Below are positions 7,570 through 13,300 of a stretch of DNA of 64,000 bases, piece after piece. Position 1 is the first letter of the stretch, and every line of letters begins with the position of its first letter. Source of the stretch: Ramlibacter pinisoli (GTDB lineage: Bacteria; Pseudomonadota; Gammaproteobacteria; Burkholderiales; Burkholderiaceae_C). The notes below the pieces were generated by a model that made no database searches, had not been told where the DNA came from, and saw only the letters and a program-made list of their open reading frames with translations. The stretch is from the NCBI RefSeq assembly GCF_009758015.1, contig NZ_WSEL01000011.1, positions 124,001 through 188,000 on the forward strand. Reading direction: 5' to 3'. The translations under genes and the position numbers were made by a program.

Positions 7570-8430
7570 ATGCTCTATCCAGAACTGTTCAAGCAACTCG
7601 AGTCCGTACGCTGGGACATGGACAAGGACATTCCCTGGGAGCGGTTCGACGCCTCGCTGCTGACCGACGAACAGGCGCAGACCATCAAGATGAACGCCAT
7701 CACCGAGTGGTCGGCGCTGCCGGCCACCGAGATGTTCCTGCGCGACAACCGCAACGACAGCGATTTCTCCGCCTTCATGTCGATCTGGTTTTTCGAGGAG
7801 CAGAAGCACTCGCTGGTGCTCATCGAGTACCTCAAGCGGTTCCGCCCCGAACTGGTGCCCAGCGAGCAGGAGTTGCACGAGGTCCGCTTCGAGTTCGAGC
7901 CGGCGCCGGCCCTCGAGACCCTGATGCTGCATTTCTGCGGCGAGATCCGGCTGAACCACTGGTACCGGCGCGCCTCCGAGTGGCACACCGAACCGGTCAT
8001 CAAGCACATCTACCAGACCCTCAGCCAGGACGAGGCGCGCCACGGCGGCGCCTACCTGCGCTACATGAAGCGCGCCATCAACAACTTCGGCGTCGAGGCC
8101 AAGGCCGCCTTCGCCAAGGTCGGCGTGCTGATGGCCAGCGCGCGCCGCACGGCCCAGGCCCTGCACCCGACCAACCTGCACGTGAACAAGTCGCTGTTCC
8201 CGCGCGACACCATCCAGAGCCGGCTGCCCAACCCCGAGTGGCTGGAGCACTGGCTGGACACCCAGATCAAGTTCGACGCGGTCTGGGAGACCAAGGTGGT
8301 CGAGCGCATCCTGCACAACCTCAGTCTGCTGATGGACCGCAGCTTCCAGAGCGTGCAGGAGCTCAATCGCTACCGCAAGGAACTGACGGCCGTCCTGGCC
8401 CAGGGCACCGCCGCCGCGCACGCGGCGTGA
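7570..8430 (+). CDS. Ferritin-like di-iron protein (acyl-ACP desaturase-like)
   Basis: The 286-residue protein has two ExxH iron-binding motifs in a four-helix pattern: FFEEQKHSLV and SQDEARHGGAYL, with further acidic residues in TEWSALPATEMF and FCGEIRLNHWY that could complete the E...ExxH...E...ExxH site of the ferritin/ribonucleotide-reductase-like superfamily. Family members are annotated as ferritin-like or acyl-ACP desaturase-like proteins; substrate is unknown. The gene is followed 5 bases later by rfaE2, so they probably share a transcript. The divergent peroxidase might suggest an oxidative-stress theme, but that is inference. Confidence 0.8.
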   Translation: MLYPELFKQLESVRWDMDKDIPWERFDASLLTDEQAQTIKMNAITEWSALPATEMFLRDNRNDSDFSAFMSIWFFEEQKHSLVLIEYLKRFRPELVPSEQELHEVRFEFEPAPALETLMLHFCGEIRLNHWYRRASEWHTEPVIKHIYQTLSQDEARHGGAYLRYMKRAINNFGVEAKAAFAKVGVLMASARRTAQALHPTNLHVNKSLFPRDTIQSRLPNPEWLEHWLDTQIKFDAVWETKVVERILHNLSLLMDRSFQSVQELNRYRKELTAVLAQGTAAAHAA

Positions 8431-8435
8431 CGGTC

Positions 8436-8918
8436 ATGGCCACCGCGCCGGCCTTTCTCGCCAAGGTGGTGGCGCGCGCGCAGGCCCCGGCCGCCGTGGC
8501 CGCCCTGCCCGGGCCGGTGGTCTTCACCAACGGCGTGTTCGACGTCCTGCACCGCGGCCACGCCACCTACCTGGCGCAGGCACGCGCCCTGGGTGCCAGC
8601 CTGGTGGTCGCGGTCAACACCGACGCCTCGGCGCGCCGGCTCGGCAAGGGGCCGGAGCGGCCGCTGAACAACGAGCAGGACCGGGCCGCGATGCTGGCGG
8701 CGCTGGAGAGCGTGAGCCTGGTCACCTGGTTTGACGAGGACACGCCGGTGCAGCTGCTGGACGAGCTGCGGCCGGCCCTGTACGTCAAGGGCGGCGACTA
8801 CGCCATGGAGACCCTGGCCGAGACCCGGCTGGTGCAGGGCTGGGGTGGCCGCGCGCTGGCCATCCCGTTCGTCGGCGGCTACTCGACGACCGCGCTGGTG
8901 CGCAAAATCCGCGCCTAG
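8436..8918 (+). CDS. rfaE2: D-glycero-beta-D-manno-heptose 1-phosphate adenylyltransferase
   Basis: The 160-residue enzyme activates heptose 1-phosphate with ATP to ADP-heptose for the lipopolysaccharide inner core. It is the stand-alone nucleotidyltransferase half of HldE, as is usual in betaproteobacteria. The cytidylyltransferase-like motif HRGH is at residues 39-42 (TNGVFDVLHRGH), with PLNNEQDRAAMLAALESV and the C-terminal GYSTTALV segment typical of the family. The ATG at 8436 is preceded by an in-frame GTG a few codons upstream; the ATG fits the family length. The kinase half (hldE1) is not in the window. Confidence 0.92.
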   Translation: MATAPAFLAKVVARAQAPAAVAALPGPVVFTNGVFDVLHRGHATYLAQARALGASLVVAVNTDASARRLGKGPERPLNNEQDRAAMLAALESVSLVTWFDEDTPVQLLDELRPALYVKGGDYAMETLAETRLVQGWGGRALAIPFVGGYSTTALVRKIRA

Positions 8919-8919
8919 C

Positions 8920-8946
8920 GGTCACACGCCGGCCGGCCGGTCCGTC
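8920..8946 (+). promoter_or_regulatory. ECF41-type promoter upstream of the sigma factor gene
   Basis: GGTCACA at 8920-8926, then exactly 16 bases, then CGTC at 8943-8946. The published ECF41 target motif is TGTCACA-N16-CGTC; this differs in one base only. The -10 element ends 7 bases before the sigma ATG at 8954, which implies autoregulation and a leaderless or nearly leaderless transcript. The motif is read from sequence; use by this sigma factor is inference. Confidence 0.7.
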
Positions 8947-8953
8947 TTTCGCC

Positions 8954-9862
8954 ATGGACCAGCGCACCGCCACCTTCCAGCAGCACCGCCGACGCCTGTT
9001 CGGCATCGCCTACCGCATGCTCGGCTCGCCGGCCGAGGCCGACGACGTGCTGCAGGACGCCTGGCTGCGCTGGAACGAATCCGACACCGACAGCCTGCGC
9101 ACGCCCGAGGCCTGGCTGGTGACCGTCACCACCCGGCTGGCCATCGACCGCCTGCGCGCGCTGCGCGCCGAGCGCGAGCACTACACCGGCTTCTGGCTGC
9201 CCGAGCCGCTGGTCGAGGCGGCCGACGAGGACACGCCGCACGCGCTGCTGGAGCGGGCCGACCAGGTCTCGGTCGCGCTGCTGCGGCTGCTGGAGCAGCT
9301 GGCACCGCACGAGCGCGCCGCCTTCGTGCTGCGCCAGGTGTTCGATGTCGACTACCCCGACCTGGCGGCCATGCTGGGCAAGACCGAGGCGGCCTGCCGC
9401 CAGCTGGTGCACCGCGCCGGCGAGCGGGTGCGGGCGGCGCGGCCGGCGCAGGTGGTCGATCCGCTTGAGCACCAGCGGCTGCTGGAGGCCTTCGCGGCCG
9501 CCGCCACCCGGGGCGACCTGGCCGGCCTGCGCGACCTGATGGCGCCCGACGCCCAGCTGGTGAGCGACGGCGGCGGCAAGGTCCGCGCGTTCGGCCACCT
9601 GCTGCAGGGCGGCCAGCGCCTCGCGCAGCTGTACTACGCCACGTTCCTGCGGCTCGGGGCCGGGGTGCGCTACCAGCCGGTGCGGGTGAACGGCCAGCCG
9701 GGACTGGCGCGCTGGATCGACGGCGAACTCGAATCGGTGCAGGCCTTCGAGGTGCAGGCCGGCCGCATCGCCGCCGTGTTCGTGCAGCGCAACCCCGACA
9801 AATTGGCACGGGTGCGCGCGCACCTGTCACAGGCGGGCGGGCCGGCGCGTCTTGAGCAGTGA
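8954..9862 (+). CDS. ECF41-family RNA polymerase sigma factor with SnoaL-like extension
   Basis: The 302-residue protein has sigma region 2 (residues 8-75, GSPAEADDVLQDAWLRW), the WLPEPL linker at 81-86, sigma region 4 (about 105-160) and a fused SnoaL-like C-terminal domain. The ECF41 hallmarks are all present: DGGGK at 205-209 and NPDKL near the end. In this family the C-terminal domain replaces a separate anti-sigma factor and both inhibits and activates the sigma. ECF41 factors control a neighbouring carboxymuconolactone decarboxylase, oxidoreductase or epimerase gene, and exactly such a decarboxylase gene follows. Promoter motifs of the ECF41 type sit before both genes. The inducing signal is unknown for the family. 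Confidence 0.95.
   Translation: MDQRTATFQQHRRRLFGIAYRMLGSPAEADDVLQDAWLRWNESDTDSLRTPEAWLVTVTTRLAIDRLRALRAEREHYTGFWLPEPLVEAADEDTPHALLERADQVSVALLRLLEQLAPHERAAFVLRQVFDVDYPDLAAMLGKTEAACRQLVHRAGERVRAARPAQVVDPLEHQRLLEAFAAAATRGDLAGLRDLMAPDAQLVSDGGGKVRAFGHLLQGGQRLAQLYYATFLRLGAGVRYQPVRVNGQPGLARWIDGELESVQAFEVQAGRIAAVFVQRNPDKLARVRAHLSQAGGPARLEQ
9825..9851 (+). promoter_or_regulatory. ECF41 promoter for the decarboxylase gene (exact consensus)
   Basis: TGTCACA at 9825-9831, a 16-base spacer, and CGTC at 9848-9851: a perfect match to the reported ECF41 target motif. It lies inside the last codons of the sigma factor gene, 34 bases before the decarboxylase GTG at 9885. So the decarboxylase can be induced separately from the sigma gene. 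Confidence 0.85.
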
Positions 9863-9884
9863 CACCACTTTGAAAGGACGCTCC

Positions 9885-10349
9885 GTGGACACTGCCCGCC
9901 TCCCCCACACCCAGCTCGCCCCCGACGCCTTCCGCGCCATGCTCGGCGTCAGCGAGGTGCTGCAGCGCTCGCCGCTCGGCAAGGCCCTGCAGGCCCTGCT
10001 GCACGTGCGCGTGTCGCAGCTCAATGGCTGCGCGTACTGCCTCGACATGCACACGCGCGAGGCGCTGGCGGCCGGCGAGGAGCTGCAGCGCCTGCTGGGC
10101 CTGCCGGCCTGGCGCGAGCTGCCGCTGTACACCCCGCGCGAGCGCGCCGCGCTGCAATGGGCCGAGGACCTGACGCTGCTGGCCGACAGCCACGCGCCGC
10201 AGGCCAGCTTCGATGCGCTGCGGCCGCACTTCAGCGACGCCGAGATCGCCGACCTGACCTTCTCGCTCGCCCAGATCAACGCCTGGAACCGGCTGGGCGT
10301 GGCGATGCGGCTGCCGGTGGCGCGCCGGCCGCTGGCGGTGCGCGGCTAG
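9885..10349 (+). CDS. Carboxymuconolactone decarboxylase / AhpD-like protein (ECF41 target)
   Basis: The 154-residue protein has the AhpD/CMD core with the redox-active CxxC...H motif: Cys49, Cys52 and His56 in NGCAYCLDMHTREAL. Family members are alkylhydroperoxidase-like thiol peroxidases or decarboxylases; this subfamily is the standard partner of ECF41 sigma factors. The GTG at 9885 is chosen over an upstream TTG because AAAGGA (9873-9878) sits 6 bases before it and because the ECF41 promoter lies between. The stop overlaps the convergent RND pump gene by 4 bases. Confidence 0.9.
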   Translation: MDTARLPHTQLAPDAFRAMLGVSEVLQRSPLGKALQALLHVRVSQLNGCAYCLDMHTREALAAGEELQRLLGLPAWRELPLYTPRERAALQWAEDLTLLADSHAPQASFDALRPHFSDAEIADLTFSLAQINAWNRLGVAMRLPVARRPLAVRG

Positions 10350-13300
10350 TCGCGCGGCGCCGCGTCGGCCAGCGGCGCCGGCGTCGCTGCCGGCGGCGGA
10401 TGCCGCCGGTGCAGCCGCTGCAGCTGGCGGCGGACGAAGTGCTCCACGTCGTTGACGTAGGTGAACACCACCGGGATCACCAGCAGGCTGAGCACCGTCG
10501 ACGTGATCAGGCCGCCGATCACCGCGATCGCCATCGGCGAGCGGAAGCTCGGGTCGGCGGTGCCGAAGCCGACGGCGATCGGCAGCATGCCGGCGCCCAT
10601 GGCGATGGTGGTCATGATGATGGGCCGGGCCCGCTTGTGGCAGGCGTCCATCAGCGCGTCCCAGCGGCTCATGCCGTGCTCGCGGGCGACGATGGCGTAC
10701 TCCACCAGCAGGATGGAATTCTTGGTCGCGATGCCCATCAGCATGATCAGCCCGATCAGCGACGGCATCGAGAAGCTCTTCTGCGCCACCAGCAGGCCGA
10801 CGAAGGCGCCGCCCAGCGACAGCGGCAGCGCGGCCAGGATGGTCACCGGGTGCAGGAAGTCCTTGAACAGCAGCACCAGCACGACGTAGATGCACAGCAC
10901 GCCGGTCAGCATGGCCAGCCCGAAGCTGGCGAACAGCTCGCCCATCACCTCGGCGTCGCCGACCTCCGCCACCTTCACGCCGGCCGGCAGGTTGCGCAGC
11001 GACGGCAGGGCCTGCACCGCCTTGGTCACCTCGCCCAGCGGCAGGCCGGACAGCTCGACCTCGAAGTTGATGTTGCGCGAGCGGTCGTAGCGGTCGATCA
11101 CCGCCGGCCCGCCGGCCAGCTCCAGCGTCGCCACCTGGCCGAGCATCACCGGGCCGCGGCTGCCGGGCACCGCCAGCCGTTCCAGCATCGACAGGTCCTG
11201 GCGCGCCTCGTCGGCCAGCCGAACCACGATCGGCACCTGGCGCTGCGAGAGGTTCAGCTTGGGCAGGGACACGTCGTAGTCGCCCAGCGTGGCGATGCGC
11301 AGCGTCTGGCCGATGGCGGCGCTGGTCACGCCCAGGTCGGCGGCGCGGGCGAAGTCGGGCCGCACCGCGATCTCCGGCCGGATCAGGCTGGCCGAGGACG
11401 ACACCTCGCCCAGCCCGGGGATGGTGCGCAGGTCCTTCTGCACCGCCAGCGCCGTGGTCTGCAGCGCCTGCGGGTCCTCGCCGGTCAGCACCAGCACGTA
11501 CTTCTCGCCCGAACCGCCCAGCCCGACCCGCGAGCGCACGCCCGGCAGCTCGGTCAGGGCCTGGCGGATGCGGTTCTCCACCGCCTGCTTGCGCTCCCGG
11601 GTGCCGCGTTCGGCCAGCAGCACGGTGAGGGTGGCGCGCCGGGTCTCGGCCGCACCCTGGGGCGCGAACGGATCGGCCCCGGCCGTGCCGGCGCCGATGG
11701 TGGTGTAGACGCTGCGCACCTCGGGGATGTGCGTCGCCAGCAGCTGGCGCGCGTGCTCGGCCGACTGGCGGGTCTGCGCCAGCGTGCTGCCGGGGGGCAG
11801 TTCCAGGTTCACCTGGGTCTGCGAGTTGTCGTCCGGCGGGATGAAGCCGGTCGGCAGCAGCGGCACCAGGGCGATCGAGCCGAAGAAGAACAGGGTGGCG
11901 GCGATCAGCGTGACCAGGCGGTGGTGGGTGCACCAGGCCACCCAGCGCATGTAGGTGGTGAGCCAGGCCGGATCGCGCCCGGGGTGCGCGATCGGCCGCA
12001 GCAGGTAGGCGGCCATCATCGGCGTCAGCATGCGCGCCACCACCAGCGAGGCGAAGACGGCCAGCGCGGCGGTCCAGCCGAACTGCTTGAAGAACTTGCC
12101 GGCAATGCCGCTCATGAAGGCGGTCGGCAGGAACACGGCGATGAGGGTGAAGGTGGTGGCGATCACCGCCAGCCCGATCTCGTCGGCCGCCTCCATCGCG
12201 GCCTCGAACGGGCGCTTGCCCATGCGCAGGTGGCGCACGATGTTCTCGACCTCGACGATCGCGTCGTCGACCAGGATGCCGACCACCAGCGACAGCGCCA
12301 GCAGCGTGACCACGTTGATCGAGAAGCCCAGCAGGTACATGCCCAGGAAGGCCGGGATGACCGACATCGGCAGGGCCACCGCCGAGACGAAGGTGGCGCG
12401 CCAGTCGCGCAGGAACAGCCAGACCACGATCACCGCCAGCGCCGCCCCTTCGTACAGCAGGTGCAGCGAGCCCTCGTACTCCTCCTGCACCGGGGTCACG
12501 AAGTCGAACGCCTGGGTCAGCTGCAGGTCGGGCCGCTGCGCCTGCAGCTCGGCCAGGGCGCGCCGCACCCCGGCGCCCACCGCCACCTCGCTCTCGCCGC
12601 GGCTGCGCGAGACCTCGAAGCCGACCACCGGCTTGCCGTCGAGCAGGGCGGCGGCGCGCGGCTCGGCCACCGTGTCGCTCACCTGGGCCACCTGGTCCAG
12701 GCGCACCCGCCGCACGTCGCCGTTGCTGGTCGCGCCGGGCAGCGACAGTTCGATGGCGGCGATCTCGGCCGCGCTGCGCACGGTCGCCAGCGTGCGCACC
12801 GGCTGCTCGCTGCCGCCCAGGTCGGTGCGGCCGCCGGCGCTTTCCACCTGCACCTGGCCGAGCTGGCGCGACACCTCGGCCGCCGTGACGCCGAGCGCCT
12901 GCATCTGGCGCGGGTCGAGGGCGACGCGGATCTCGCGCGTGACGCCCCCGACCCGGTTGACCGCGCCCACGCCCTTGACGGCCAGCAGCCGGCGCGAGAT
13001 CTCGTTGTCGACGAACCAGGACAGCGCCTCTTCGTCGAGCTTGCTGGAGGCGACGGTGTAGGCCAGCACCGGCTGGCCGGCCAGGTCGAGCTTGGTCACC
13101 ACCGGGTCGCGCAGGTCCGACGGCATCTCGGCGCGCACCCGCTGCACCGCCGAGCGCACGTCGTCGACCGCTTCCTGCACCGGCTTTTCCAGCCGGAACT
13201 CGGCCGTGATCGAGACGCCGCCGTCGGTGACCCGGGTGGTGATGTGCTTGAGGCCCTGCACGCTGGCGATGGCGTTCTCGACCTTGCGCGCGACGTCGGT

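Follow-up and report, generated by a model that had tools for sequence, protein, structure and literature searches.

An ECF41 sigma factor gene of Ramlibacter pinisoli with a predicted promoter of its own, a predicted leaderless message, and a predicted leadered message for its decarboxylase partner

The window, i.e., the whole 64-kb stretch of Ramlibacter pinisoli DNA analysed here, carries a sigma factor gene followed on the same strand by the gene of a carboxymuconolactone decarboxylase family protein, each preceded by a promoter-like site. The features of the locus are as follows:

8436..8918, + strand: rfaE2 (D-glycero-beta-D-manno-heptose 1-phosphate adenylyltransferase domain), TIGR02199 at 183.2 bits for a cut-off of 181.5, start codon uncertain; genomic context
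8916-8918, + strand: TAG, stop codon of rfaE2, from the sequence
8920..8926, + strand: GGTCACA, -35 element of the predicted sigma-gene promoter (P_sigma), by motif match; GTCAC invariant across 8 orthologous loci
8943..8946, + strand: CGTC, -10 element of P_sigma, by motif match; CGTCT invariant across 8 orthologous loci
8954, + strand: A of the sigma-gene ATG, predicted to be the transcription start to within one or two bases, from motif spacing
8954..9862, + strand: ECF41 sigma factor gene, 302 amino acids, C-terminal SnoaL-like extension, ATG start, no Shine-Dalgarno (SD) sequence; from profiles and a structure match
9825..9831, + strand: TGTCACA, -35 element of the predicted partner promoter (P_CMD), within the sigma gene, by motif match
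9848..9851, + strand: CGTC, -10 element of P_CMD, within the sigma gene, by motif match
9873..9878, + strand: AAAGGA, SD sequence of the partner gene, from the sequence; of 104 partner genes scored, 89% have an SD core
9885..10349, + strand: partner gene, AhpD-like carboxymuconolactone decarboxylase (CMD) family protein with a CxxC motif (CAYC), GTG start; Pfam CMD and TIGR00778
10346-13483, - strand: RND efflux permease gene, convergent neighbour of the partner gene

The 35-nt gap between rfaE2 and the sigma gene is filled by P_sigma, and neither a terminator-like site nor a sigma-70-like promoter was found at 8300-10500. Among the two neighbours of the pair, rfaE2 and the RND efflux gene, there is no separate anti-sigma gene. 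The stop codons of the partner gene and of the opposite-strand permease gene overlap in CTAG (10346-10349). The partner most likely starts at the GTG at 9885, behind AAAGGA, with in-frame TTG codons further upstream at 9852 and 9870; its identity is given by Pfam CMD (72.7 bits, cut-off 23) and TIGR00778 (53.3, cut-off 27.8), and its CxxC was read off the translation.

An earlier note on this DNA, made from the letters alone, had called the sigma factor a member of the ECF41 group, and the profile searches bear this out. The protein exceeds the cut-offs of both TIGR02957 (333.3 bits against 323.25) and the SigJ model (302.7 against 271), each spanning residues 2-288, and Pfam Sigma70_r2 and r4_2 are both matched, with SnoaL_2 at 21.6 bits, under the Pfam cut-off of 27. 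DGGGK and NPDKL, conserved motifs of the ECF41 extension, are present in the protein and invariant among 12 aligned relatives. The structure of SigJ of Mycobacterium tuberculosis (5xe7), named as an ECF41 factor in a review (PMC8999054), resembles the window's sigma factor over its full length, aligning to residues 5-284 with the C-terminal domain included (6.5e-47). The C-terminal extension of about 100 residues or more after sigma regions 2 and 4, the WLPEP linker (an ECF41 feature, PMC3426412), an adjoining COE partner and the TGTCACA-N16-CGTC target motif, whose recognition is predicted, are thus all present in the window. The ATG at 8954 is the sole in-frame start codon ahead of the conserved region. 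A protein search of the genome (E up to 0.001) returned no second ECF41 gene, only two other matches, 31 and 35% identical and covering residues 8-161 and 8-186 of 302.

Wecke 2012 (PMC3426412) counts about 400 ECF41 proteins from 10 phyla at that time, and describes, as does a review, a C-terminal domain that controls the activity of the studied proteins and the activation of TGTCACA-N16-CGTC-type promoters in two other species, where the COE gene with its operon was the only detected target. These systems, from Bacillus licheniformis and Rhodobacter sphaeroides, share with the window the C-terminal extension, WLPEP, the COE partner and the motif; unlike them, the window has the sigma gene first, with its own promoter and a predicted leaderless start, and their mapped COE messages carry a 22/23-nt leader with a ribosome site (PMC3426412). 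RpoE9 of Sinorhizobium meliloti is likewise an ECF41 factor with a carboxymuconolactone decarboxylase, there the single target, but at that locus the COE gene comes first and the sigma gene is co-transcribed behind it from a single operon start (PMC6180224).

Both promoter-like sites are as the earlier note had read them. TGTCACA-N16-CGTC lies ahead of the decarboxylase gene at 9825-9851 (+ strand), without mismatch, inside the 3' end of the sigma gene, and GGTCACA-N16-CGTC lies at 8920-8946 (+ strand), with one mismatch, the same N16 spacing and 7 nt (TTTCGCC) between the end of CGTC and the ATG. No further site in the 64-kb window matches the motif with one mismatch or fewer. Because shuffled windows hold 0.89 such sites on average and reach two or more in 24 of 100 cases, this count alone is not significant, and at up to two mismatches the 8 sites observed compare with 15.5 expected; site counting within the window was therefore set aside as uninformative. 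The two sites gain significance because they stand directly ahead of both genes of the ECF41 pair, because the 5.5 Mb genome has no perfect N16 match other than 9825-9851 (N15 matches occur at two other places; the reversed-pattern control gave 1), and because they are conserved in relatives. With P_CMD as the sole perfect N16 site, a wider ECF41 regulon in this genome was considered and rejected. A relaxed motif followed by an ATG at 7-9 nt matched three places in the same genome (reversed control 1), namely the sigma gene, a simple repeat and one position on contig C9. The mismatch in P_sigma is at its first T; in the 35 one-mismatch sites found at sigma genes in the two sets of relatives described below, mismatches fall only at position 1 (18), 7 (14) or 11 (3), so that the window deviates at the most tolerant position.

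For the first of these sets, the sigma protein was searched against 60 genomes of the genus, 299 of the family, 349 of the order and 398 of the phylum (samples partly overlapping), with matches in 25 genus (E up to 1e-40), 72 family (1e-60), 25 order (1e-60) and 41 phylum genomes (1e-50). Every listed match was examined, and the 166 loci, less L002 and L003 (not ECF41) and L120 (a duplicate of L087), left 163 in a survey that is centred on the window's relatives. The motif, called with at most one mismatch and a spacer of 15-17 within a 315-nt stretch that covers the sigma start and the sequence ahead of it, precedes the sigma gene at 102 of the 163 loci (genus 25/29, family 54/72, order 17/26, class/phylum 6/36) and is missing from 61; over the same loci, 25 permuted motifs averaged 0.6 and never exceeded 4, and the opposite strand gave 6. 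CMD partners were looked for by profile within the fetched stretches. Where the partner lies downstream on the same strand (91 loci), the motif stands at the sigma gene in 80, at the partner in 81 and at both in 72; where it lies upstream (20 loci), the motif stands at the sigma gene in none and at the partner in 19. The site before the sigma gene, whose conservation the earlier note had proposed to look for, is thus widely kept. As in the window, rfaE2 lies upstream of the sigma gene in L004-L008, L032 and L033, and in all eight rfaE2-linked loci the motif occupies the same place, 7-8 nt ahead of the ATG, and in their alignment GTCAC, CGTCT and CATGGAC are invariant amid divergent spacer and flank. 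A second, named set consisted of the best 80 of 562 relatives, from which 10 sharing sequence with the first set were removed; of the remaining 70, 39 have P_sigma and 31 do not.

Conservation of a second promoter, ahead of the sigma gene, therefore points to positive autoregulation, by which the sigma factor would very likely act on its own gene, in agreement with what the earlier note had drawn from the second site. The same note had placed such autoregulation outside the usual ECF41 picture, which the published record does not bear out in that form, since autoregulation is already recorded for the group as a documented minority: Wecke 2012 (PMC3426412) gives the motif before 14/53 sigma genes in the >ECF> >COE> order, with about 20% having it at both genes, and before 36/55 in the divergent order. 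The present densities of 80/91 and 72/91 for the former order, in a sample centred on the window's relatives, are higher than theirs. In the predominant >COE> >ECF> order the same source has the motif before the COE gene and a sigma gene without it (Table 4, PMC3426412), a finding that our partner-first loci repeat. The ECF41-type promoter that had been proposed for the partner is likewise upheld, by the perfect motif in the window and by its frequency in the partner-downstream loci. That one and the same sigma factor recognises both sites is what we infer from the sequence.

The more novel part is the start of the sigma message. Among the 102 P_sigma loci, an in-frame ATG follows CGTC at 7-9 nt in 64 (7 nt in 4, 8 nt in 38, 9 nt in 22) and is absent from that interval in 38, out-of-frame ATGs at 7, 8 and 9 nt number 2, 0 and 0, and at 10-18 nt there are 4 ATGs in frame and 3 out of frame. 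When the first start codon at least 5 nt out is taken and falls at 7-9 nt, it is ATG in 63 cases, GTG in 1 and TTG in 1. In the named set, drawn from the best 80 of 562 relatives, the ATG is at 7-9 nt in 17 of the 39 P_sigma loci and at another spacing in 22, the former including Variovorax, Hydrogenophaga, Massilia, Xanthomonas, Stenotrophomonas, Pseudoxanthomonas and Luteimonas; across both sets, seven loci have it at 10-11 nt. The window's 7 nt is one below the mode of 8. As for where transcription would begin, purines make up 29% of the bases at offset 7 and 78% at offset 8 (G 63%) in 106 partner promoters, and 83% at offset 8 in leadered sigma promoters, a pyrimidine-purine step of the kind that a start at the ninth base after CGTC would give. 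In S. meliloti, transcription of the ECF41 operon has been mapped to begin 9 nt downstream of the motif (PMC3616915). The promoter sequence in Table 1 of PMC6180224 has nine bases after CGTC, and in those entries of the table that mark the start in lower case it is the last letter. Together with the step at offsets 7/8, this makes the A of an ATG at 8 nt the predicted +1.

Ribosome sites agree with this placement. An SD core was found in 0 of the 64 leaderless-class sigma genes, an absence that is partly built in because the scored bases overlap the promoter. The core occurs in 46% of the leadered sigma genes (35 scored) and in 89% of the partner genes (104 scored), both of these groups being taken at their best-scoring start, which favours an SD there (the 64 and 35 are those of the 102 P_sigma loci that have an ATG, three lacking one; 104 of 106 partner genes were scored). 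The window's sigma gene itself has an ATG start and no SD core upstream. The first 28 nt of the 64 messages fold at -1.78 kcal/mol, compared with -7.91 in gene interiors, and at z +0.26 against shuffles, a matter of composition and not of order. Our best reading of the predicted 5' ends, which come from motif spacing, is accordingly a leaderless sigma message and a leadered partner message, and the leaderless start that the earlier note had ventured from the 7-nt spacing now stands more firmly than its reader could have known.

Leaderless messages as such are not exotic, and one organism that has them, Cupriavidus metallidurans, is a beta-proteobacterium. There, 4.67% of primary starts are leaderless, with the transcription class enriched and a leader under 5 nt counting as leaderless by definition, and the passages in question name no ECF41 sigma gene (PMC7563307). 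For S. meliloti, 171 leaderless starts are reported in a paper that treats both ECF41 and leaderless messages, and its passages on them describe no leaderless ECF41 sigma gene (PMC3616915). The word "leaderless" is absent from the main text of Wecke 2012 (PMC3426412), and we found no description of a conserved leaderless ECF41 spacing in the literature searched, supplements and relevant subscription papers being outside that search.

The pattern was also approached from the other end. Searching 298 family genomes for the motif followed by an ATG at 7-9 nt gave 61 matches in 49 genomes, and 5 for the reversed pattern; of the 61, 34 coincide with sigma starts (all but one in frame), 12 lie at a downstream partner and 15 elsewhere, the sorting having used 60 of 75 family sigma places, with no "elsewhere" match on the contigs of the other 15. 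Because of its P_sigma mismatch, the window's genome yields no match in this search. Perfect ECF41-type promoters with partner-like start regions also occur off the sigma places, at G276:C50, G183:C8, G265:C1, G162:C444 and G162:C604, and are possible unlinked ECF41 targets. On a tree built with FastTree only, in which 70 of 228 inner branches are open, several branches are long and L031 and L090 are excluded, the leaderless class needs 24 changes against a shuffled mean of 66.9. It is thus clustered, yet leaderless and leadered starts alternate on the tree, also inside the genus, so that a single clade was rejected; gain of the leaderless form is not distinguishable from its loss. Of the 64 leaderless-class loci, 51 have GAC or AAC directly after the start codon, which may reflect a constraint on the protein or on the message. 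In four leadered sigma genes of the same genus (L011, L018, L023 and L025), ATAGAC or GTAGAC stands near the position that ATGGAC occupies in the leaderless class; these sequences may be eroded leaderless starts or may reflect what the promoter prefers.

That last possibility belongs to a broader explanation, in which P_sigma is real and autoregulated and the ATG near +1 merely reflects what ECF41 promoters prefer in their start region, the leader being short or the start a few bases off, and leaderless translation not having been selected. The partner leaders lend it some substance: 27 of the 106 contain an ATG at 6-9 nt, and the 28 ATGs at 5-11 nt are spread over the frames as 11/9/8, with no frame preference, so that the promoter start region may itself favour such letters; the ATAGAC and GTAGAC of the four leadered loci fit as well. 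The sigma-gene ATGs at 7-9 nt behave differently, being in frame in 64 of 66 cases, unlike the frameless ATGs of the partner leaders, and the ATG as mere start-region sequence was rejected on this ground. The missing SD core in the 64 and the window's lack of any other in-frame start codon ahead of the conserved region speak against it too, and a leader of fewer than 5 nt would still be functionally leaderless by the definition cited above (PMC7563307). We consider this explanation improbable, albeit the strongest of the competitors.

Somewhat less probable still is that, in this species, most of the sigma message arises by read-through from rfaE2 or at another promoter, GGTCACA being a decayed site and the partner the sole real target. 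The -35 mismatch, the short 35-nt gap to rfaE2 and the lack of a terminator-like site at 8300-10500 would suit such an arrangement, as would the two studied species in which the COE gene with its operon was the sole detected target (PMC3426412). However, the mismatch sits where 18 of 35 one-mismatch sites have theirs, spacing, GTCAC and CGTCT are kept in 8/8 rfaE2-linked loci, no sigma-70-like promoter was seen at 8300-10500, and a read-through message would offer no SD. A chance match before the sigma gene, for which the 24 of 100 shuffles with two or more sites could be invoked, is very unlikely given the same site 7-8 nt before the ATG in 8/8 rfaE2-linked loci and the 102 of 163 sigma genes with the motif against 0.6 for permuted motifs.

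The reading that we favour, with a probability of roughly 0.7, is that the ECF41 factor drives both P_sigma, giving a leaderless message of its own translated without an SD, and P_CMD, giving a leadered partner message. Active sigma factor would transcribe from P_sigma (8920-8946), starting no more than a base or two from the ATG, and the resulting message would be translated without an SD. From P_CMD (9825-9851), inside the sigma gene, it would make a leadered partner message with an ordinary ribosome site, and as transcripts from P_sigma would run on into the partner gene, both promoters would raise the partner and P_sigma the sigma factor as well. The C-terminal SnoaL-like domain would gate the loop, and a self-reinforcing switch, as the earlier note proposed for the pair, is a possible behaviour of it. 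With neither a sigma-70-like promoter nor a terminator found at 8300-10500, the basal supply of sigma message would have to come from P_sigma itself or from rfaE2 read-through. The latter offers no SD site and would probably be a poor template for translation, which might tie synthesis of the sigma factor to its own promoter.

The leadered partner messages often begin with a hairpin. In the sigma-first order, 40 of 81 leaders fold better than 95% of shuffles (mean z -1.71), and only 3 of 19 do so in the partner-first order; the arms vary in sequence between species (e.g., L017, L019, L022 and L027), and the window's own hairpin, at about 9858-9869, is weak. A role in message stability is a guess.

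We tentatively extend the favoured reading, at a probability of about one in three in our judgement, to a conserved leaderless start that serves as a regulatory device of ECF41 sigma genes across the Burkholderiales and some Xanthomonadaceae, in which only self-started 5'-AUG transcripts would be translatable, the loop would be insulated from read-through and its gain set by the state of the ribosomes, and the partner would stay leadered, SD-driven and often hairpin-headed. If true, a single two-gene circuit would use a different mode of translation initiation for each of its two outputs. ECF41 factors are widespread and come without obvious anti-sigma factors, and a conserved self-promoter together with a leaderless start would be a naturally occurring example of positive feedback coupled to unusual translation initiation and would offer a simple, testable model for how the threshold of such a system could be set.
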